Origin: Cenococcum geophilum 1.58
Taxonomy: Eukaryota; Ascomycota; Dothideomycetes; Gloniales; Gloniaceae
DNA: 64,000 nucleotides
Direction: 5' to 3'
Assembly (NCBI GenBank): GCA_001692895.1
Contig: KV748189.1
Location: 256,432-320,431, forward strand
The notes beneath the pieces were generated by a model. That model saw only the letters and a program-made list of their open reading frames with translations, was not told the origin of the DNA and did no database searches. The number at the start of each line of letters is the position of its first letter. Within the stretch, counting starts at the first letter, position 1. A program made the position numbers and the translations under genes. Positions 1 through 40,808 of the stretch are shown piece by piece.

Positions 1-606
1 GGAAGGATAGGAATAACATCATTCTCGGTATATGGTTCGTTACACTGTAAATAGTCCCAATTAGCAGACACGTCCACCAGACAGAAACCTCTATCCCTGA
101 AAAAGGTACAAACTCACCTGCAAGCACGTTTCCCCTAGAACCTCCTTGACCACACTTCCTACAAACGCATGCCCGCACGGCACCAAATACACCGCCTTAG
201 CCCCAGGCCCCAACTCGCGCCTCGTAATCGGACACACCCATCTCTCCGTCCGCTCAACCCCTCCATTCATACTCTCCTCGCCACCAGCCTCCACTTCAAA
301 CTTCACCTCCACCACATCCTTCAGACTCCGCACTCGCCCCTCCAGCACCTTCTCGTCCTCCACTTTCTTCACGCCGCCGTCGTCCGCTAGGAGTAGATAC
401 TCGAGAATCGCGTCCTTGTTGTATAGCTTCCCCGCAGCATCGGAGACGACAGGCCGCGCGAGCGGCTTGCGCGTTAAAGGGTCGGTGCTCCAAGCGTATG
501 ACTGCTGCTCGTGCTGGGTTTCTTTGAGCTGAGTCGTTGTGAGGGCGCGCGCGGCTTCTTTGACGAGTTCACGTCGCGTGGGGATGCTGCCACCGTCGTT
601 TCCCAT
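1..606 (-). CDS. rtf2: Rtf2-family RING-like protein, 5' part (3' end beyond window)
   Basis: Exons 606..118 and 44..1 on the minus strand; the gene runs off the left edge. The N-terminus (MGNDGGSIPTRRELV) and the pattern 'SYAWSTDPLT..PLARPVVSD..GKLYNKDAILEYLL' match Rtf2, a nuclear protein that acts at replication forks (replication termination in fission yeast, fork restart and proteasome shuttling in animals). A RING-like zinc site begins at WVCPITRREL and VPCGHAF. The intron (45-117) runs from gtgagt to tttacag with a ctaat branch-like site; after it the frame continues CNEPYTENDVIPIL, which is the conserved second half of the family's zinc site. The ATG at 606 is the first in frame and begins the conserved start. 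The C-terminal part is not in the window. Family assignment is secure; the function in this fungus is inferred. Confidence 0.9.
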
Positions 607-925
607 GGTTGTATAGTTTGCCCCGGGGGAGGGGGTTTGGGAAGGGTGTGTGGAGGCGCGATGGCGGGAATGTGCGAAGCTAGTTCGAGATGCTTGGCGC
701 GGCTTGGCGGTCGCATGTTATCTGGGGAACTTCCAACGTCAGGTCTTCATCCGATGGTAGAGAGCGTGTACCGGCCCATTTCTTAACTTACCCCCTTGGA
801 AGTTATATATTCGATTATATTCCTTTGATTCATGCAGATATACTGAAGAACTGGTTGTAACCTATGAAAGCCGGGGCTGGCAGGGTAGGTTGAACTTTCC
901 ATGTCAGCCTTGCTGTAGTATCTAT
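607..925. other. Intergenic, upstream of rtf2
   Basis: No conserved coding signal. It holds the presumed rtf2 promoter, including a G-rich stretch near 622-640, and ends at the left terminal inverted repeat of the next element. Open frames here are short and antisense to rtf2. Confidence 0.4.
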
Positions 926-927
926 TA

Positions 928-1083
928 TCCGTGGCCTTCGTAGCTGCGCCTCGACCACCCACCCGAAGGGTGGGTGGTGGACATCCAAATCGCCAGGACA
1001 GCTCAATCGCCACTATTAAACCCACCAAAAATTAGAAAATTTATACCTTAATATCTTAACAACCACTAAATAATAAATTCTAA
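928..1083 (+). repeat. Left terminal inverted repeat
   Basis: Inverted copy of 3581-3736, running from TCCGTGGCC at the outer end to a taaattctaa inner end. The hairpin at about 954-978 has an 11-bp GC stem with a 3-nt loop. A frame starting VGLIVAIE can be read in both copies only because they are repeats. Confidence 0.85.
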
Positions 1084-1296
1084 TAATTTAGATTTAGGCT
1101 TTTATATACACTCTATAACTTTTTATTAAAGTTATAAAATAAATTATTTAGTAGTTTTAAAGATATAGTATTTTGGCCTTATTTTGACCTTATTTTAGCC
1201 CCCAAATTTTACTATCTTAAAAACTACTAAGTAATTTATTTTATAACTTTAATAAAAAGCTATAGAGTATATATAAAAGCCTAAATCTAAATTATT
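1082..1296. repeat. Fold-back (MITE-like) inverted repeat
   Basis: Arms of about 88 bp (1082-1170 and 1209-1296) are near-perfect reverse complements around a spacer of about 38 bp. The outer ends read AATAATTTAGATTTAGG and its complement. The element is very AT-rich and abuts the inner end of the left TIR, so it is either a separate nested MITE or part of the larger element's end. It has no coding content. Confidence 0.8.
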
Positions 1297-1439
1297 GACC
1301 CGAGGTACGAGTGGTCTATATTTTCGGGTCCCAGATTTCAAACCCTTGCCAAGCCAGCTTTTGATTGGTCCAAAAAAAAGTTGCGGGCGGTATCTACCTG
1401 CAAAATACACGTGACGAACTTCAAAACATTGAGTTTAAC

Positions 1440-3440
1440 TAAAGCTCTGCAAATGCTCTGCACCGAGCTCTACCAAAGCCCTGCAAATGCTCTGCACGAA
1501 GCTCCGTATGAAGCTCTGCAAAAGCTCTACCAAAGGCTTTGCAGCATCTCTGCCCACTCAGTGTACTGGCCACGTAGTGAATGGAGCACGCAGTGCGCTG
1601 GGGGGTCTAAGAGGGTCTCCCCCTTGAAGCTCTGCTCGAAGCTCTGCTCGAAGCTTTACTCGAAGCCCTATACGGAGCTCCAAAGCTCTACTAACGCGCA
1701 GCACTAATATACTAGGAAGTCTCGACGAACGTCTCTACAAACACCTCTACGACGGCTCTATAATTGCCTGTACAATCGTCCGTACAAACGGCTCTGCAAA
1801 CGTCTACACGATCGCCCGTACGAACACCCGTACGATCGATCAATCAAATGTCCATACGATCAATCAATCAGACGCCTATACAATTAATTAAACGCCCGTA
1901 TAAACGTCTCTACAAGTGTCTATAAACGTCTCTACGAACGTCTGTATGAACGCCTACACGAACGTCTACACGAACGCCTGCACGAACGCCTGCACGAACG
2001 CCTATACGAAGCTCTGCTCAAAGCTCTATACAAAGTCGTTTATAAGGCCTTCAAAAACAAGCCTAAATACAAGCTCTATCAAAGCTCTACATAAGGCTCT
2101 ATCAAAGCTCTGCATGGAGCTCTACTAAAGCTCTACAAAGGCTCTGCACGAACCTCCGTACGAAGCTCTACAAAAGCTCTGCACAAACCTCCGTACGAAG
2201 CTCTGCAAAAGCTCTACTAAGAGCTCTACTAAAGCCTCTACTAAAGCCTCTGCAAGAGCTCTGCCCACGCAGTAAATGGAGCACGCAGTGCGCAGGGGGG
2301 TCCAAGGGGGTCTCCCCCTTGAGCTCAAAGTTCTACTCGGAGCTCTACTTAAAGCTTAATACGGAGCTCTAAAGCTCTGCTAACACGCAGTACTAATATA
2401 CTAGGAAGGTTCTACAATTGGCCGTACAAACGTCTATACGATTAATCGCCGTACGATCGTCTCTACGAACGGCTCTACGAACGGCTCTATAAACGTCTAC
2501 ACAATCGCCCGTACGAACGCCCGTACGAACGCCTATACGAACAATCAATTAAACGTCTATATGATCAATCAATCAAACGTCTATACAATTGCCTATACGA
2601 TCGTCTCTATAAACGTCTCTACGATTAATCGCCCGTAAGAACGTCTGCACGCTTACATGTAGCTCTATAGAAGCTCTATACGAAGCTTTACACAAAGCTC
2701 TACACGAAGCTCTACACGAAGCTCTGCAAAAGCTCTACCAAACGCTCTACTAAAGCCTCTGCAAGAGCTCTGCCTACGCAGTAAATAGAGTACACAGTAC
2801 GTAGGGGGGGTCCAAGGGGGTCTCCCCCTTGAGCTTAAAACTCTACTTGAAGCTCTACTTGAAGCTCTACTCAAAGCTTAATATGGAGCTCTAAAGCTCT
2901 ACTAACACGCAGCATTGATATACTAGGAAGGCTCTATAATCGTCTACACGAACGGCTCTATAAACGGCTCTGCAAAAGTCTGCACGATCGCCCGTACGAA
3001 CGCCTATATAAACGCCTATACGATTAATCAATTAATCAACTAAACGCCTGTACGAACGTCTCTATAAACGGCTCTACAAATGGCTCTATGTACGGCTTTA
3101 CGTACGGCTCTACAAACGTCTATACAATTAATTAATTAATTAACTGCCCACACGAACGCCCGTACAAACGATCAATTAAATGCCTATACAATTATATATA
3201 CAGCCATCTCTACAAATGTCTCTGCAATTAATCGCCGGAACAAATGGCTGCACGTCTACACGTCTGCACGTCTGAACGTCTGCACGTGGCTCTGCGCAAG
3301 GCTCTGCACGAAGCTCCGCACGAGGCTCTGCCAAAGCTCTGCACAAGGCTCTACTAAAGCTCTGCACGAGGCTCTACCAAAGCTCTACATAAGGCTCTAT
3401 TAAAGCTCTACATAAGGCTCTGCCCAAAGCTTACCCCCTA
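1440..3440 (+). repeat. Degenerate 12-bp satellite array
   Basis: About 2 kb built from variants of a 12-bp unit. The main forms are GCTCTGCACGAA and CGTCTACACGAA / CGCCTGTACGAT-like units, with mixed blocks. Because 12 is a multiple of three, stretches stay open and would read as four-residue repeats such as TNAY or KLCS; I treat these as artefacts. The same unit occurs inside the element at 4441-7736. Three longer higher-order units are superimposed. Confidence 0.85.
1557..2935 (+). repeat. Three higher-order units with a G/C hairpin core
   Basis: Each unit has a conserved block (about 1557-1640, 2263-2330 and 2772-2840) with 'GCAGTAAATGGAGCACGCAG', then a GGGGGGTCCAA run and a perfect hairpin AAGGGGG-TCT-CCCCCTT. 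About 70-90 bp later comes the motif TATACTAGGAAG (near 1709, 2398 and 2920). The spacing between units is about 700 and 510 bp. The hairpin core is better conserved than the 12-bp units around it; the first unit is the most divergent. Confidence 0.75.
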
Positions 3441-3580
3441 CTGCGAAGCACGACGGAGGTATATGTTAATTAAGCTCTATACAATACGGCTCTAAATTAA
3501 AGCTTTGGGTTAATTAATCGGCTTATTAATTATAAACTCGGGTCAAAATTTTCGTTGGGGGGTACCAACGATCCGCATGT

Positions 3581-3736
3581 TTAGAATTTATTATTTAGTG
3601 GTTGTTAAGATATTAAGGTGTAAATTTTCTAATTTTTGGTGGGTTTAATAGTGGCGATTGAGATGTCCTGGCGATTTGGATGTCCACCACCCACCCTTCG
3701 GGTGGGTGGTCGAGGCGCAGCTACGAAGGCCACGGA
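3581..3736 (-). repeat. Right terminal inverted repeat
   Basis: Reverse complement of 928-1083, including the GC hairpin at about 3686-3711, and followed by TA at 3737-3738. Confidence 0.85.
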
Positions 3737-3738
3737 TA

Positions 3739-4432
3739 GCTTGTATAGGAACACCCATCTACCTCGCCCTGCGACTGAGAGTACAGATTTTGACCTGCGC
3801 CCAACTAAAAGAGCCATTAATAGAAACTGGCAGAAGTAGCTGTACAATAAAGGACAGAACTGTTTAATTCTAATCAAGTTGTGCAGATTACTAGATATCA
3901 TCCAACGTTGTAAGGAGAAGTCCGATTCTTTATAAAGTGAGGGATCCAAATTATAGAATTCAATGGGGCCTAGAAAGGTAATAGTAAAAATTTCAACCAT
4001 AAAACTATGTCTACAATAATAACTTCGTTTGATTTACAAAGTTAGATGATTGTGTAACGGCATAGAGACTCCAGCTTTACCCCGCGCCACCAACAGGCCC
4101 AAAAGGCATATCGTTCAATTGAGAGGATGATCTAACAGTTAGATGCATACGACTCGTGCCTGTTAGACAAGTGAGAAACTTTATTTGGAGTGAAACATGA
4201 CTCAATCCTTCTCCAGAAAACATAAAAGGTAGGACATTTTTTACGCAACCAGATGCCGAGGAGTGAAGATGAAGATGAAATATTTGCCATATCACTGATC
4301 ATGTAATCGTCTTCGATACTCATCTTGGTGTACAAAACCATTACCGTGAGTCCAGTTCCAATCACGGACGCTAATTGACTTATCTGCTGCTTTAGCCTGA
4401 TTCGAGACCACGACACCTCAAGTCAGGGCTGG
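3739..4432. other. Unassigned single-copy stretch
   Basis: No recognised gene. A 94-codon minus-strand open frame (4132-4416) has no family resemblance I can name, and neighbouring frames overlap it. This stretch and 7745 onward were contiguous before the element at 4441-7736 inserted. Confidence 0.3.
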
Positions 4433-4440
4433 GTTGGGGC
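4433..4440. repeat. Target site duplication, left copy
   Basis: GTTGGGGC, identical to 7737-7744; it fixes the insertion point of the hAT-like element. Confidence 0.88.
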
Positions 4441-4629
4441 CAGCGTGGGTTTCAATAAGCGAATATTCAGCCAATAAAATATCGGCATTTGCCAATATTT
4501 GCAGCGCCAATATTAAATATTCGCAATAGTTTAGACCAAATTATTATAATAAAAGTATACTTATTCTAAAAAGAAAGATTATATAAATTATTGGCATATA
4601 TTGGCAGTTTTTATAATAGTATTTTAATT

Positions 4630-5405
4630 TCTTGCCTGCACAAAGCTCTGCGCAAAGCTCTGTGTACAAAGGCTCTGCGCGAAGCTCTACAGAGGCTCTG
4701 CACGAAGCTCTGCGCGGGGCTCTGCACGAAGCTCTGCGCGGGGCTCTGCACGAAGCTCGCACGAAGCTCTGTATGGGCTCTGCACGAAGGCTCTGCATAA
4801 AGCTTTGCACGAAGCTCTGCTTACGGAGGCTCTGCACGACGGCTTTGCACGAAGCTCTGCTTACGGAGGCTCTGCAGGACGGCTTTGCGTACGACAGTTC
4901 TGCGTACAACACGGTTCTGCGTATGACGGCTCTACTACAGAGACTCTTATATAAAGCTTTGTGTAGATTTTCGTTGTAGAGCTTCGTGGCAGGGCTTCGT
5001 GCAGAGCTTTTGTGCAGAGCCTCCGCAGAGAGCTTCCCGCGCGGAGCCTCCGTATGTAGCGCTTCGTGTGTAGAGCTTTGTAACAGAGCTTCGTGTAGAG
5101 CTTTAATATAATCGTGCAGAGCTTCGTGCAGAGCTTCGTGCAGAGCTTCCGTGCAGAGCTTCTGTGCAGAGAGCGCTCTGGCGTATAGCTCCGTATAGAG
5201 ATGTTATTTGTATAGAAGCTTTTATATAGAGCTTCGTATAGAGCTTCGTGCAGAGCTTTGTGTAGAGCTTTGTGTGTAGAGCTTTGTATAGAGCTTTGTA
5301 TAGAGCTTTTGTATAGAGCTTTGTATAGAGCTTTATATAGAGCTTTATATAGAGTCTCCGTACATAGGGCTTCGCGATTATAGGGTTTTATATATAGAGC
5401 CTCTA
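4630..5405. repeat. Head-to-head inverted 12-bp satellite array
   Basis: From about 4635 to 4970 the units run as GCTCTGCACGAA. From about 4975 to 5400 they run in the opposite direction as TTCGTGCAGAGC. The turning point is near 4970, giving a large degenerate palindrome. The unit is the one in the array at 1440-3440. Both arms decay towards TATA-rich variants at the outer right end. Confidence 0.85.
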
Positions 5406-7130
5406 TATAGTATAATAGCGTTTAATTAAAAAATATATAACTACTTAGCTAATAAATATAAATTTTAAGTATTAAATTTACCTTATTATACTTTTAAATA
5501 GAGGTTTATCTAGCTTTAGATAGCTATATAGTTTCCCTCTTATATATATACCTATATAGGCCACTATATAGACCTAATAGGAGCTATAATAGCGTAATTA
5601 AATATCTTATCTTATCTTATACTTCTAAATAATATTTTATTTATTTATTATATAAAAGCTTATTAATATTTAGATATAAATATTTATTTATTTAACAATA
5701 GTATATTATTATTATTATTTATTACTTAATATCTAATTTAGATCCTATTAGGCCAATATAGACTACTCCTTATATATATATAGGGAGAAAACTCTATTTA
5801 AAGAAAACCCTAATAATCCGTCTCTTTGCCTTTTAAGACTCGCCTATAAGTGGTCTATAAGTTACTTATAGTACACTACTACCTTACTTTTTTAATCTCC
5901 TTGGAACTACTACTGCCGTAATAAGCCTATAGATACGTTAGTATTATTTACTTTTTAAGTTAATTAATTAAATTATATAGTAAACTTATAAAGTAGTATA
6001 TAAACCTAATTTATATTACGCCGCTAGTAGAAACTAGTAGATTATAGCTAGTAGATATTAGTAGATTATGGCGGATAATTATAGATAGTTTATAGTTTTT
6101 ATATAGTTGCGTTATATAACTATAGGATTATAATATAACGTTTAAGCGCGCGCCACCTTTATCTATCCTTTTTTTTCTTAGCTTTAGTCCTCGTTTATTT
6201 AGACTACTAATCATATAGGCTTACGCCGTCCCTCTTAACCGTACTCGTGCCTTAATTAACTAAGGTCGCTAATAATTTAGCTACTACTACCTTTACTTAA
6301 TTACCTATACCTACGCTATAAAGCTTATTTTTATATATAGTATGCATAATTACTTATTAGTTTTTTAGTAGAAAATTAATATTATATAGGCCTACCTTTA
6401 ATAAACTTATAGATATTATTAAAAGTAAGGCTTATATAGTTATATAGCTTTAATAGAGGTAGATTAAAAGCTATAGTAGATATAGGGAAAATAGAGTAAA
6501 TATAAGGTATATAAATAGTTACTTGCGGATATATATAATATTTTAATATAAAGAGAAAGGATCTAAGTTTATTTAGGTGGTAGTATATATATATTATTTA
6601 GAGGGTATATATTATTATTATTAATTATTATTTTATGTCTAATGCGGTTCTCTTATAAGTCTATATAAACTACTACCGTAATATAGATATAAAAAACTCC
6701 ATAGGGAGATATAAGGGGTAAGTACTTATATAGTATCCGTACTATATTAACGGGAGAAAAAGTACCTTTTAGGTCGCTAATCTAAGACTCCCGTACACAT
6801 ACGCGTATAGGAGTATTCTAATTACCTATCTTGCCCTATTTACCGCTCGTACTATACTTCCTAATAAAGTTAAATTGCCGTATAGTTTTATATGCCTACT
6901 CCTTACTCCCCTAATTACCCTATATATATATATACGCCTAGGTCCTTCTACTTATAGTATAATTTCTACCGTAAAGAAGCTAGCGGGATAAATATAAAAC
7001 TAGGTATCTTATCCTAGGGCCCTAACCTAGGTCCCCTATATATATCTATAGCTAAAGATATAGAGGAAGACGAAATACTATATAGGTAAGTCTAGGCTAT
7101 TAGGTAAGGTAGGGAATAAGAGGTTTATTA
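5406..7130. other. Very AT-rich gene-less core of the hAT-like element
   Basis: Dominated by TATA, TTAATTA and CTATATAG-type words, with stop codons dense in all frames. I see no domain signature. The composition is like the RIP-altered retroelements at the other end of the window, so a decayed transposase is possible but not shown. Confidence 0.5.
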
Positions 7131-7149
7131 TAGACTTCCTAAGGCGTAT

Positions 7150-7350
7150 ATATATGTGTTTAGCCGCCATGCCGTATACGTTCGGTTACACCGTATACGT
7201 CTAATCCGTACGCGTTCGGTTATATACCGTTACGCTTAGTTATAGCTGTATACGTTTAGTCTGTATGTGTTTAGTTACGCCGTATATGTTTAGTCGCAGC
7301 GCCGTGCCGTATAGGTTTTGCCGTATATATAGTTATATACCGTACGGAAG
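7150..7350 (+). repeat. Degenerate 15-20-bp repeat (CCGTATACGTTTAGT-like)
   Basis: About seven imperfect copies of a CCGTATACGTTYGGTTA-like unit follow one another, with spacing drifting between 15 and 21 bp. They lie inside the hAT-like element, between its AT-rich core and its GC island. Confidence 0.6.
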
Positions 7351-7424
7351 GGAGAAAGGGGTAACGCTGGTTTAGATGCCGTAGTTTAAGTATACTAGAC
7401 TTATACGAAAAGACGTAGTAGTGC

Positions 7425-7560
7425 TCGTAGGCCTCCGCTAGGGCTCACCCTCCCAGCAAAGACTTCTTCACACCACCACGTCGCAGCGCCGGCGCTGCGC
7501 AGCCGTACGCACGTCTCTGCGTTTGCTCTAGTAGCCTATTAGCACGATCTAGATAGAACG
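7425..7560. other. GC island with a perfect 16-bp palindrome
   Basis: A GC-rich patch within an otherwise AT-rich element. It holds the palindrome GCAGCGCCGGCGCTGC at 7483-7498. The satellite-associated motif TATACTAGGAAG recurs just after it (about 7570-7582). Confidence 0.6.
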
Positions 7561-7736
7561 CCAAAAGCTATATACTAGGAAGAGGGTATATAACTAGCAG
7601 GGCCAAAATTTGATGGGGTGCCAAGAAGATCTGCAAATATTATAAATATCGCCAATACTCGCCAATACTCGCCAATATTGATTAGTAACAATATTGATCA
7701 ATATTATTGGCAGTATTGATATCGAAAACCACGCTG

Positions 7737-7744
7737 GTTGGGGC
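7737..7744. repeat. Target site duplication, right copy
   Basis: GTTGGGGC, identical to 4433-4440. Confidence 0.88.
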
Positions 7745-8178
7745 TGGATCGGGCTGAGCAAGCATGGATAAGTTCCAACCTTTTCCTGAGCACACTATAA
7801 GTGCACACGGATGGCTTTATTCTTGAGGCCCGCTTGCCTTCACTTATATTCTCCGATCGCATATATCACTAGCCGCTAATATTACTAATAAGGGACTTTT
7901 TACATCCATATCTTCACAAAAGCCTTGAATTTCGGCTTCTTTCTAGGGCGCATCTATTTTGTGGCCCACCCTGGAGAAAACCGCGTGATTTGGATCATTC
8001 CCTTGACGAATTCTTCGTTCCGCTAGCGGGGGTCTTTGTTTCTCGATCGACGTCCTCGAATCTTCAATGCATTTCGTCGAGTCGTTCCAGTTGGATCCTT
8101 AACACATGCTGCGCTAAAATATCGCCACCGGAGCCAAATTTCTGTTCATAACCAGTTCAATCCCTAGGTTCTAATACG
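7745..8178. other. Unassigned stretch between the hAT-like element and an open frame
   Basis: No gene recognised. Balanced composition with short open frames only. It joins 3739-4432 if the element is removed. Confidence 0.3.
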
Positions 8179-8472
8179 ATGGAGTATATGGACGATACAG
8201 ATGCCAGCGATCACAGCTCCGTTTCCGACCTTTCCATAGACTCATCCAGGTCGAAGTGAAACCAGAAAAGGCTCAGCGAAAACTGTCAAACCATCACTCT
8301 AAGAAAACCTACTGAAAGAAAAGACCTCTCAAGCAATGACTGCCTCTATTCTCAACAATACCACCCTAATCTGGACTCGCTGGATTTGGGCACAATTGGC
8401 CGCGACTCACTCGGTTCGCCTCAATACCAGCTGCATTTGAACGAAGCAGCTTCTGAAACGCACTATTCATAG
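8179..8472 (+). pseudogene. Possible gene relic, unidentified
   Basis: An ATG at 8179 opens a frame starting MEYMDDTDASDHSSVSDLSI, rich in D and S. It meets a TGA at 8257-8259 and then stays open for 70 codons to a TAG at 8470-8472. The two halves are alike in hydrophilic, low-complexity composition, which suggests one former coding region. I recognise no family. It could equally be a chance frame. Confidence 0.25.
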
Positions 8473-9104
8473 TTTATCAAAACATTGCCGGATAAGTGTG
8501 GGGAAAGCAAAGTACTACGCAGAGCAGCAACTGATAGTAGAAACGAGGCGCCATCGTGACTCCCCAACTTTGATAGTGATGTAGACGATGTGCGCCGCAT
8601 GGAGTCTTGGCATGATGCCGAGGCTGGGACGGTGAATCAGCTTTGTGCTACAGCAGGAGCTTCAAAGGGCATTGTAACAGAGAAAGGATGTACTACAGTA
8701 GATTTGTTCTTCAATTCACCCTACAAAAATTATTTTGGCAAAATCTAATTGTGGGAGATAAACCGGGGATTCGAACGCAGGGCTCGGAGGAAACGTAGCC
8801 GAAATTTCAAGTGGAAATTTTTTGCCCGCTCAAGCAGAACGTTAGCTTGGCAAAATAGCCGAGATCAATCTTGACTCAACTTTGCAATCACAGGGCTCGC
8901 GCATTCCTTCATGCATTACCTCTCCATACTCACGATAACTACAGCAATGCATTGATGGAATACCATGAATTATACTGAGCCAATCTGGGCTGGTGCACGT
9001 AGCAGAAGCCTCACGCTTATTCCTTGACGCTTCTTCACCTTCCAAATCCCACTTCAGGTTGCCGAGCTTAAATCCAATAACCTTTGCTATAAAGAACTAC
9101 CACC
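8473..9104. other. Intergenic, upstream of BRF1
   Basis: No conserved coding signal. The last 60-100 bp before the ATG at 9105 are the likely BRF1 promoter and leader; CCACC immediately precedes the ATG. A minus-strand open frame at 8842-9045 looks like chance. Confidence 0.4.
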
Positions 9105-25422: not shown

Positions 25423-27195
25423 CTTATTCGATGACAATATCAAGAAGAAGTTCGGAGTGTCTAGCAGAGCGATGCAAAGCTGAATTGATGAGATGTGGAA
25501 AGGAAGTGGCAAAAGCCAGATGGCCATGACGTGGGATATCCAGGACAATGTCCAAGAGCCCAGAAAGGAGGGTAGATACCCGACTTCTGCAATAGGGGCT
25601 GAATCGAGAGACATCAAGAATAGACTGTTTCGCCAGCGACAGGAGCTCAAATTCGGTGACCATGGCCTTGGAATCTTAATGCTTCAGGTTCTTTTGTCAC
25701 AGCATCAGGAGGTTGTGTTCGAATACACCTTACATAGATGCGCCTGCTAGGGTCTCTAAGCACAAATAATAATCAGAAGACAAGCCGTTTGCACGATTGA
25801 GAGCGAGCCAAGTATCTCAAGATCGAGTATGACAATAAGTCTCGAGAGATTGCCCAAAACTCTGTACCACGGGAATATGCGCCCTGCATTGCTCAGGTCT
25901 GACGACGGTAATGGGTTTCGGTGAGATGACTTTTTGCTCAAGACCATAGTAGCGGTACCCAATCAGACTGACGGTGGGTTTTTATTCCCGAGCCTAAGCA
26001 TTTCCTTTCAATTTCCGCTCAATTTCCGCTCGAGAGGACTAGCCGCTACCACGCTTATTCTACAACATCCTCTCTCCATTCTTCACTACGCAAACTATGA
26101 TGACTACATGCGGTCCTTACTACCTTATTTTACATAAATGGTGCTCCAACAGCAACTGCACAGTGAACCAAGCCATCACACTAACCTACGCTTCATAGAA
26201 ACTCCCATAATTGGCACAAAACCGTCCGGACTAGAATTTAGTTCTCTGAAAGCCTTCGGGACTGCTCGAGCTTGTCTATGAAGCCCTTACCCAAACCTAG
26301 AAATACCGGCCTTGCCAGATCGTGTATCTAAAAGGGCCTCCTCAGCTTCAAAAGGGTTGTCGCAGGCATCACATGGAACCGTTTTGAAGAAGTCACTGGC
26401 TATGCAGCCTCTTTATAGTGGTCCACTTGACCGAGTCGCTATTGGAGAGCTCCGAGTCCGTAGGCCATTTAGAGAGTTTTAGAGAAGTTTGTGGTTCAAT
26501 ATGCGCCTCAGCTCTAAACGTCCATGATCGTAGGGAAAACGAGTCTGGGGTTATTAGAGAGAGTACGGCTAGAAATAGTTCGATCAATGCCTCGGGGAGG
26601 GCCTCTACTTCTTGAACGGCTAGTGAAGATCAATTTTATAAGATCGGGCGGCTTTTGCAGTACATAATCACCGCAGATTGTGTATCGGCGTTATGTGGAG
26701 ATCCATCCCCAAGAAATGAGCATTATCATCGTATTAAGGAGTTCTTGTCTAGGAAGTAAACTCGTGTTTTGACTTAAGGTTTGAATGAGCTGGAGATACG
26801 GAGCAAAGAGGTGGATTCAAAAGGCCGACATTGGGCAAAGCCCACGGTTCCACTACATCCGCTATTGGTTCACTGTCAAAATTTCGCCCAAACGAATCTC
26901 TGGGATCGCTGAAATGACGTGGCAATGTCCATGATTTCCCAGAATCTGGACATATTTTGTAGGACTTGATTAAGTGTCAGACTCAGCCACCCATCTGATG
27001 ATGTATATCCATGCCTGTTTTCCGAAAATTATTTGGAATTGGGCCATTTCGGTTATAATGTGCCGTGCGGAACGATAAAGCCGCGTTTGTGGAGAGCATT
27101 TGGTAGGCGCAGCAGCGGCGAGTTTGTGCCCCTGATAGGTTATGACTTGTCGGTAGAAGATCGCATTTCAAGAATGAAATACGTAAGCAAGTTAC

Positions 27196-27411
27196 ATGAG
27201 CAACAACACGAAATATAAAGAAGCACAGAGAGACCTACCTTCATAAATCATGAGCAACAACACGAAATATAAAGAAGCACAGAGAGACCTACCTTCATAA
27301 ATCATGAGCAACAACACGAAATATAAAGAAGCACAGAGAGACCTACCTTCATAAATCATGAGCAACAACACGAAATATAAAGAAGCACAGAGAGACCTAC
27401 CTTCATAAATA
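27196..27411 (+). repeat. Four tandem copies of a 54-bp unit
   Basis: Units start at 27196, 27250, 27304 and 27358 with ATGAGCAACAACACG and end with CTTCATAAATC or equivalent; the copies look identical apart from the last few bases. On the minus strand each unit carries GAAG/GTAGGT, a perfect-looking splice donor, next to the end of a minus-strand open frame. The expansion may therefore have multiplied an exon-intron junction. Near-identity suggests it is recent. Confidence 0.9.
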
Positions 27412-39121: not shown

Positions 39122-40808
39122 CTGGTAATAACTAGGAAATAAGAGAAAGGGGTACTAGTAAATAAGTCCGTAGTCTCTATCCCTCTCCCTTTTTAAATTC
39201 GGTCCAAAACACCTCCGCCTTAGGGTCGCCGTAATAACTAGAATAGGGTTCTATGTTAAGGTAGAAGTTAGAAGCTCTAAACCTTGCTGTAAAGGTATCC
39301 CCTTGGTTATTGTTGTTGTTATTGGTATTACTATTACTGCCCTCAAAATCGGAGATATATTGACGTATTTTTTAGTCCCTTTCGTCCTTTGTATGGTTCG
39401 TAGACTAATATCTAGATTTACTGCATATAAAGCACTTTTTACCCTTATTACGGTATTGACGGTTAGGGGGGTGATATTATTGGTCGGTATAGAATGATTT
39501 AATCTCTGGTTCTTGTTTACTGTACGTCGCGATTAAGGATTTAATGTCGCTAATAAGGCCAGTAAGGGTAGTAGCGGGTTGGAAATAGGCTGGTTTGCAA
39601 GCTAATACATCTTAGTATATAGTAAGAAGCTTATTATAGAATATCGTGTTATTCTAAAGGTCCTTTGCTAACCCGCGTTGTAGCTGCCACATCTTATTAA
39701 TTAATACCTGAAATGCTTAGCCTGTATTAAGTCCTTTTTAAGCAGTGACTTGTTTAAGTATAATCGCATTCTACTTTGATAGGATGTCGCGTTTATATTC
39801 GTCGCCCTTAAAGTATAATTTTAGGCCTATATATACATTCTTAAGAAGGTTAAGGTCTTTAAGGTAGGTAAAGTAGTATTTAAGAGTAAGGCCGCGGAGC
39901 ATAGTAGGAATAGCAATAATATACGCTTGCTTAGGGACGCCAGCTTAAAGGCAGTAGTTTTGGAAGATCTTAAACTTAAAATTAAAGTTATCTTGTTTGC
40001 TGGAGTATTTAACTTCGTCCGTGTAGAGCTTAGCTAAGTTGGTAATCTCTCTTCCGAAGCTTCCTTGTACGGCGAGCTGGTCTATAGCTTAGGTCGCAGT
40101 TGGTAGTAATGGTAGAGCTAGGGTAGGGTCGTCGGTAGGGTCATCAGTAGGGCCATCGGTAGGGTCATCGGTAGGGTTGTTGGTAGGGTCGTCGGTAGGG
40201 CCATCGGTAGGCCATTTTGAGGGAGTTGGTTTGTGAATAGTTCCTAAGAGGCCGTCTGCAATTAACTTCCTTGCCTCCTTCCGTACGTATACTCTATTTT
40301 TACGGAGGTAATCCCTGATCTTCTTCAATCGATCCTTGCTAAGGTCATTAAGTATATCCCTTATAAATGACTCAAAGTCGTCGACAAAGCTCTCCTATAA
40401 GTTAAATCCCTTCTATCTATTCTCTTTATATATCGATAAACGCCAATTGACAAATGCCTTAATTTCCTTAATGTCGGTTGCGGTCGCATCGATTCCAGTC
40501 TCCCATTTTTTAGTCTCCCATTTTTCAGTATTTGACGCGGAGGTAGCCATTACGTTAGTATTTGTTGCGGAGGTAGCCGTCTTTTGGTTCCGCAGTTGAT
40601 TCGACAGTTAGACTAGAAGCGTGGAAACACCCATAAACTAGTTGCTCTGAAGGCGTGATGGACGCAGGTCAGAAGCGCGAGTAACCTCACAAACTGGCCT
40701 TTAGGCTTAGCAAGCAATACCTTGATTCTTAGCCTTTGACAAGAGGTCTAGAGAATCAGACAATGCCTTTCTTCGTTATTCCTTGCTAATCTGTGCGGCA
40801 CTGATCAG

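Follow-up and report, generated by a model that had tools for sequence, protein, structure and literature searches.

A 12-bp minisatellite block shared by a nested Helitron2/Helentron-type element and unrelated inverted-repeat elements in Cenococcum geophilum

A 64,000-bp stretch of the Cenococcum geophilum 1.58 genome (contig KV748189.1, here C14:256432–320431; hereafter the window) contains two dense arrays of one 12-bp minisatellite, and the two arrays lie in unrelated mobile elements. A palindromic miniature inverted-repeat transposable element (MITE), element A, has received a 2.29-kb satellite-carrying non-autonomous element of the Helitron2/Helentron type, and element B, an independent neighboring non-autonomous element flanked by 8-bp duplications, carries the satellite as well. 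What is shared goes beyond the 12-bp unit: blocks found in several unrelated carriers also include a module around the motif TATACTAGGAAG, a 3’ border that is not satellite, or an inversion core with two arms. Probably, unrelated non-autonomous elements took up a satellite block as filler on a few occasions, and the block was inherited with them thereafter.

Results

Tandem Repeats Finder analysis of the whole window identifies the 12-bp unit as dense at ~1440–3431 and ~4636–5405; inverted repeats were analyzed across 600–8200, and positions 1–9000 were read directly. At ≤2 mismatches, 37 of the 42 unit matches in the window fall inside 1455–5268, and shuffles of the whole window yield a mean of 2.62 matches and never more than 7. 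A previous reading of this DNA made from the letters alone (the sequence-only reading) proposed that the same satellite occupies both places, and regarded different consensus units as the sign that it does not. Both arrays have the consensus GCTCTGCACGAA, in agreement with that proposal, and the right arm of the second array is inverted, with the minus-strand consensus GCTCTACACGAA. In the assembly searched (177 Mb, 162 contigs), an exact satellite 24-mer has 3654 matches with overlaps counted, compared with 67 for the reversed control pattern, and TATACTAGGAAG has 655 matches compared with 19 for its control. Perfect units contain no stop codon in any frame and 12 is a multiple of 3, so long open frames arise; one of 233 aa, composed of ALHE repeats, occupies the left 1.5 kb of a B copy on C7 (L083–L085). 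Such frames are uninformative, and the satellite was rejected as a coding repeat.

The first array had been assigned to a TA-flanked element with terminal inverted repeats (TIRs). These inverted repeats are real (926–1083 and 3581–3738; 158 nt, 99% complementary), although the satellite between them belongs to a nested inner element. The ends of element A, TATCCGT.../...ACGGATA, are inverted and located at TA, and the end pattern has 13 matches (≤1 mismatch) at nine loci, window included; element A is thus a short, multicopy, palindromic and TA-duplicating MITE. Full palindromic copies on C32 (L016; 527 bp) and C4 (L011) align to 926–1296 joined directly to 3581–3738, and the joined flanks in the window match the length of the 527-bp copy except for two extra T’s. 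The empty site reads AAATTATTAGAA, with the junction AAATTAT^TAGAA, and the window insert is a net 2286 bp placed between two T’s (T^T). The empty copies rule out 926–3738 as a single element and, by fixing the insertion, assign the satellite to the inner element and not to A. None of the eight other A-end loci has a satellite array in the stretches read, which span both ends at five loci and one end with ~1.5 kb of interior at three, and each has at most one unit (≤2 mismatches). Most simply, A would be a bystander to the satellite, with the inner element as its carrier.

The inner element (1297–3580) begins GACCCGAGGTACGAGTGGTCTATATTTTCGGGTC and ends CTCGGGTCAAAATTTTCGTTGGGGGGTACCAACGATCCGCATG-TT. 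It has an asymmetric terminal inverted repeat, GACCCGAG at the 5’ end and CTCGGGTC at 3537–3544, ~36 bases short of the 3’ end, and terminal hairpins at both ends, though their fold z-scores are only -1.38 and -1.80. Genome-wide, the 5’ end has 144 matches (≤3 mismatches) and the 3’ end 81, with none for the reversed-pattern controls; 100 of the 144 entered the counts of pairing, of Rep domains and of satellite association, which are therefore lower bounds. Among 30 fetched 5’ flanks (exact matches, window included), all 30 have a preceding T, 28 have TT and 27 have TNATT, a pattern with a background of 0.8% per position in the fetched DNA, and all four 3’ ends examined, window included, are followed by TT. 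Insertion occurs between T and T (TNAT^T), a position at which a 2-bp TT duplication is indistinguishable from none. A 3’ end lies within 30 kb of 33 of the 100 listed 5’ ends (null 0.54), and 28 of these pairs span 1.9–3.5 kb. A canonical Helitron1, with 5’-TC, 3’-CTRR and insertion between A and T, was considered and rejected: the ends here are GACC and GCATGTT, and insertion is at T^T. Because of its asymmetric inverted repeats, hairpins and TNAT^T target, the inner element fits the fungal Helitron2 of the FoHeli type, as far as the consulted part of that description extends (PMC5148889), and the same features fit the consulted description of Helentrons and their non-autonomous HINE relatives (PMC4067079), the endonuclease excepted.

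A potential coding partner is present in the same genome. Of the 100 listed 5’ ends, 13 are followed 1.7–2.4 kb downstream by the Rep domain PF14214 (Helitron_like_N; 150 of 340 candidates scored) in the same orientation, and none has it on the opposite strand (shifted null mean 0.11). The 28 short pairs include none of these 13 ends. One copy with Rep, extending downward from C21:2129446 (L086 with L070), is ~8.1 kb long and shares both ends with the inner element, over 135 bp at 84% on the 5’ side and 122 bp at 74% on the 3’ side, where both the set-back repeat CTCGGGTTAA and a sequence resembling a hairpin are found. With stops read as X, its frame matches PF14214 (5e-18), PIF1 (7e-10) and Pif1_2B, and the inner element accordingly has a Rep-helicase partner that ends in the same way. 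No endonuclease match occurs in any of the three frames on the Rep strand of this one decayed copy. The copy is free of satellite, with four units at ≤3 mismatches against a shuffled mean of 4.2. It does contain, ~150–90 bases before its 3’ end, a single copy of the GGGGGGTCC..GGGGGTCTCCCCC spacer found between the modules of the inner element, and part of the spacer of the Helitron array therefore derives from Helitron DNA itself. This hints at a composite array built beside the Helitron’s own 3’ region.

Element B has 64 right and 72 left ends genome-wide, with no matches for the controls. Left and right ends pair within 30 kb in 39 cases (10 spanning 1.4–2.1 kb, 13 spanning 3.1–4.2 kb and 16 longer); these are given without a null, and the long ones may contain nested inserts or be chance. 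All three copies examined are flanked by 8-bp target duplications, GTTGGGGC in the window and TCAGCAAT and GATTGGTG elsewhere. The sequence-only reading called this element hAT-like; the duplications stand, but no transposase supports the assignment. Six-frame translation of the window copy gives no Pfam match and no transposase. Domain PF05699 lies within 8 kb inward of 2 of the 72 left ends and none of the 64 right ends (150 of 585 candidates scored; a partner elsewhere is possible), too few to class B as hAT by a nearby domain, although the 8-bp duplications agree with that class. No KDZ transposase match occurs in the genome, yet control genomes gave none either, so this result is uninformative on whether B is a KDZ element.

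Comparison of B copies reveals ~180 bp on the left and ~120 bp on the right in common and interiors that differ: the window type is a two-armed satellite, and shorter copies have module-type satellite. Satellite is present in all six copies with an examined interior (the window, C1:4275153, C2:1749064, C7:220013, C1:323427 and, in part, C14:2846920), a sample biased by the drawing of three copies through TATACTAGGAAG and one through a Helitron end. At C14:2848028 (L066), a B element contains a Helitron 5’ end that is flanked on its left by sequence of the satellite module, which makes this another case of Helitron nesting. The earlier suggestion that one element had passed through the other therefore holds in the literal sense for the window, where the Helitron lies in the MITE, and for this B satellite. 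A 17.4-kb copy on C7 was considered as a full-length autonomous B and rejected, as it consists of a B of the 3.3-kb type with a 14.2-kb nested insert. This insert (L083–L085, C7:219900–237600) is bounded by the 17-bp repeat AATTAAATTATATAGTA and has Gypsy- and Copia-type reverse transcriptase matches; the right end of the same B copy is cut by a TTACCTCAG-ended sequence.

Beyond these carriers, the satellite is present in one or more additional TIR families and in other contexts. Family F5 (TTATCTCAG...CTGAGATAA) is ~2 kb long and has 59 left ends, with no matches for the controls, and 8-bp duplications are recognized by eye at C1:181791 (TTTATAAG), C2:1137908 (CGGCTCGT) and, with one difference, C1:4033669 (TTGGTATT/TTAGTATT). 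Family F4 is represented by one recognizable end (207 matches, controls 0), and F3 was defined from two near-identical copies. A recurrent context at L001, L087 and L088, in which no ends were found, places the satellite beside 41-bp and ~20-bp tandem arrays.

Several blocks beyond the 12-bp unit connect these carriers. The conserved module around TATACTAGGAAG comprises GCTCTACTAACACGCAGCACTAATATACTAGGAAG and beyond, and three other B copies carry it, whereas the B copy in the window has the bare motif in a different context. The motif had been reported as common to both elements of the window; this holds for the module in the first array and in the three other B copies, and not for the isolated motif of the window copy. 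Eight overlapping 12-mers, at four places, are common to the first array and the context of the isolated motif, against a Markov null mean of 1.38; because 123 of 200 trials of this null yield at least one shared 12-mer, sharing a single one is weak evidence. As proof of kinship for the window copy, TATACTAGGAAG was rejected as not compelling. The module consensus (e.g. window 1694–1719) also contains TACTAACACGCAG, which looks similar to the branch point and 3’ splice site of fungal introns.

The non-satellite 3’ border of the block is present in four Helitron, two B and three F5 stretches, in partial form in one B and in the F5 stretches. The inter-module spacer is confined to Helitron stretches, and none is present in the B or F5 stretches searched. 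The 57-bp inversion core between the satellite arms of B was located by BLAST in the window copy (89% to the query core), in two other B copies (L082 and L085; 89–91%), and at L008 (overlapping L007), L039, L050 and L089 (91–98%).

Nine of 64 windows were dropped (chance matches, and the bare B motif, which has no module context), and the other 55 modules, each 180 bp long, were placed in a tree. Carrier labels require eight changes on this tree, compared with a mean of 18.3 for shuffled labels, and none of 200 shuffles is as low. F5 and F3 each form one group, and Helitron, F4 and B need four, three and two changes, respectively. Three of the four B modules are sisters of F5, a weakly supported grouping (86/69). 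Of the 51 internal branches, 23 are left open, and the bootstrap has yet to settle. Frequent conversion between loci, one of the explanations offered by the sequence-only reading, is not favored because modules cluster by carrier.

The association of the satellite with element ends was examined by coordinates. The first 100 TATACTAGGAAG matches (C1–C5) form 73 module clusters, and at least 29 lie within 3 kb of a tested end (at least 11 Helitron, 9 F4, 5 B and 4 F5), whereas the null averages 0.86 and never exceeds 4. These are lower bounds, since the lists comprised 100 of the 144 Helitron 5’ ends and 100 of the 207 F4 ends. For perfect 24-mers, 28 places were listed in the initial 4.9 Mb of C1 (or 27 clusters, when two that lie 543 bp apart are counted together); at least 3 of the 28 are within 3 kb of a tested end, and the shifted null (mean 0.6, maximum 3) indicates no clear association. 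The sequence-only reading held that a satellite found everywhere and unassociated with these ends would speak against its proposal, and this is half the case: perfect places behave in that manner, and module clusters do not. The satellite is distributed much more widely than the end types tested. The proposal itself, of one satellite acquired more than once by unrelated element types, stands and extends further than claimed, with the qualification that its pairing of a TA element with a hAT element is wrong on the first side and its second superfamily is unproven.

Feature positions are compiled in Table 1. Two further tandem arrays occur elsewhere in the window, a 12-bp array of GGTAGGGTCATC with 7.5 copies (40122–40211) and four perfect copies of a 54-bp unit (27195–27410; 100% matches).

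Table 1. Positions in the window of the satellite arrays, their carriers and the shared blocks.
Feature	Position	Strand	Basis or remark
Host MITE (A), left part: terminal inverted repeat and internal palindrome	926..1296	+	158-nt inverted repeat, 99%; aligned to empty copies on C32 (97.6%) and C4 (87.9%)
Nested non-autonomous Helitron2/Helentron-type element, satellite carrier	1297..3580	+	Empty site; recurring ends; boundary T’s ambiguous by 1–2 bases
5’ terminus GACCCGAGG...TCGGGTC, hairpin with 7-bp stem	1297..1330	+	Fold z -1.38; 18/200 shuffles as good
Array of the 12-bp minisatellite (GCTCTGCACGAA and variant units), interrupted by spacers	1440..3431	+	Tandem-repeat, consensus and shuffle tests
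TATACTAGGAAG of satellite module 1	1708..1719	+	Sequence, module comparison
Inter-module spacer (AGGGGGGTCCAAGGGGGTCTCCCCCTTGA)	2294..2322	+	29 bp at 93% to one copy near 3’ end of 8.1-kb Rep-PIF1 copy
TATACTAGGAAG of satellite module 2	2397..2408	+	Sequence, module comparison
TATACTAGGAAG of satellite module 3	2919..2930	+	Sequence, module comparison
Non-satellite 3’ border of satellite block	3429..3459	+	Also in B and F5 elements
3’ copy of asymmetric (subterminal) inverted repeat, CTCGGGTCAA	3537..3546	+	Sequence; 8.1-kb copy has CTCGGGTTAA at equivalent place
3’ hairpin CGTTGGGGGGTACCAACG, then ATCCGCATGTT; 7-bp stem	3553..3570	+	Fold z -1.80; 14/200 shuffles as good
Host MITE (A), right part	3581..3738	+	Inverted repeat; empty-copy alignment
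Left 8-bp target duplication of B, GTTGGGGC	4433..4440	+	Sequence
Element B: non-autonomous, short inverted ends CAGCGTGG, superfamily unproven	4441..7736	+	Recurring ends, end pairs
Left arm of element B satellite	4636..4950	+	Tandem-repeat and consensus
Inversion core between B satellite arms	4913..4969	+	BLAST; two other B copies and four loci without B end seen
Right arm of element B satellite, opposite orientation	4978..5405	-	Tandem-repeat and consensus
Isolated TATACTAGGAAG near B right end, outside any module	7569..7580	+	Sequence, module comparison
Right 8-bp target duplication of B, GTTGGGGC	7737..7744	+	Sequence

Discussion

The favored explanation is that a dispersed minisatellite block would have been taken up a few times as internal filler by non-autonomous elements. 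In TIR elements, uptake could occur by template switching as transposition breaks are repaired, and in the Helitron by template switching during rolling-circle copying; an alternative route may be nesting followed by loss of the inner element’s ends. Each carrier would then amplify its own version of the block, and the satellite would travel as passenger DNA that needs no transposition signal of its own. Filler capture, whether by repair or by rolling-circle copying, fits the exchangeable interiors of B. Capture of ‘filler’ has likewise been discussed, in the consulted part of that study, for the Cg_HINE elements of the Pacific oyster (PMC7492417). A bolder version, in which the block is a recurrent passenger module that rolling-circle and cut-and-paste elements repeatedly pick up, unrelated transposons thereby converging on one core, strikes us as rather doubtful. 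Were it so, the block would perhaps help its carriers, as a replication, recombination or anti-silencing signal recognized by the host.

Several observations weigh against capture as filler. The capture event is deduced, and the module tree is unrooted for the direction of transfer. Loci were sampled through the satellite, the module or the ends themselves and not at random. Second ends of F3 and F4 were sought, and no pair of ends emerged. With 25 of the 28 perfect places and 44 of the 73 module clusters near no listed tested end, the satellite may have a different true reservoir. Among the B modules, one (C2_1748057, second) sits among Helitron modules, which suggests some exchange. The 8.1-kb copy, though free of satellite, has one spacer piece close to its 3’ end, so the Helitron block is partly made of Helitron DNA and was not captured whole; the 3’ end of that copy is itself diverged (74% over 122 bp).

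This last point also bears on an alternative origin, in which the module-type block was assembled in the Helitron and copies elsewhere are cores of nested Helitrons that lost their ends. The window itself exhibits a Helitron nested in a MITE, a Helitron 5’ end lies within B-element satellite at C14:2848028, the 3’ border of the block is common to Helitron, B and F5, and the spacer of the Helitron array recurs near the 3’ end of the 8.1-kb copy. However, no Helitron 5’ or 3’ end (≤5 substitutions) is present in the other B stretches read (L023, L038, L048, L049 and L082–L085), the two-armed block of the window B copy lacks a strong match in any Helitron stretch read, and the inter-module spacer is in no B or F5 stretch. 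On balance, a Helitron source is unlikely. That the two-armed block is itself a mobile element, inserting into other elements in the manner of a fold-back transposon, is less likely still. Drosophila fold-back elements have inverted arms of short tandem repeats, as does the two-armed block of B, but the arms of B are internal and not terminal. The 57-bp core with satellite arms does occur in B (window, L082 and L085) and at L008 (overlapping L007), L039, L050 and L089, and the flanks differ at least among B, L007/L008 and L089. Inspection by eye of L007 and L089, these two only, found no convincing target duplication around the block, and L039 and L089 have a common left flank and are therefore not independent insertions.

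Independent expansion, whereby a short GCTCTGCACGAA-like seed has grown by slippage in each element separately, would accommodate the array lengths and unit variants that vary between copies. Slippage of a 12-bp seed cannot yield common modules, a non-satellite border or an inversion core, and the shared border already largely refutes this explanation, which we regard as highly improbable. Uptake of a dispersed block as filler remains the reading that we prefer.

Comparison with known systems, each based on a part of the cited paper, places the inner element in a familiar setting. Cg_HINE elements of the Pacific oyster are non-autonomous Helentrons with satellite-like arrays as central repeats, T-rich targets and no target duplication (PMC7492417). 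In that account the monomers average 140–180 bp, all 13 array clusters studied are in Helentrons, and no coding partner could be related to them, whereas the present satellite has a 12-bp unit and is carried also by TIR elements flanked by 8-bp duplications, and a protein-coding copy shares the ends. DINE-1/HINE elements and Helentrons are similar in their subterminal inverted repeats, 3’ hairpin, TT targets, central tandem repeats and Rep-helicase partner, but Helentrons as described there encode an endonuclease (PMC4067079), and the one coding copy read here has no endonuclease match. The FoHeli Helitron2 elements of Fusarium oxysporum, likewise from an ascomycete host, share asymmetric terminal inverted repeats and insertion between TNAT and T, and FoHeli1 and 2 have hairpins at both ends, as does the inner element (PMC5148889). 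Their termini differ in sequence from those found here, and satellite cores do not feature in the consulted part of that description. A minisatellite within a MITE is described from Porphyromonas gingivalis (PMC4596501), a bacterial case in which, in the part consulted, one novel MITE is reported. Among the best-ranked matches in the open-licence literature, no report was found of a satellite common to different superfamilies or of a fungal satellite-carrying Helitron. Satellite-carrying Helentrons are known in animals; one block common to a Helitron and TIR elements is a new variant.

These elements also serve as a warning for annotation, as a satellite common to two elements can reflect nesting, which empty-site comparison exposes. 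The fungal Helitron2-type family gains a satellite-carrying non-autonomous form, together with a satellite-free Rep-helicase relative that has the same ends. Rolling-circle and TIR carriers coexist in one genome with 655 TATACTAGGAAG and 3654 24-mer matches, enough to study how frequently filler is captured and whether the block benefits its carriers.

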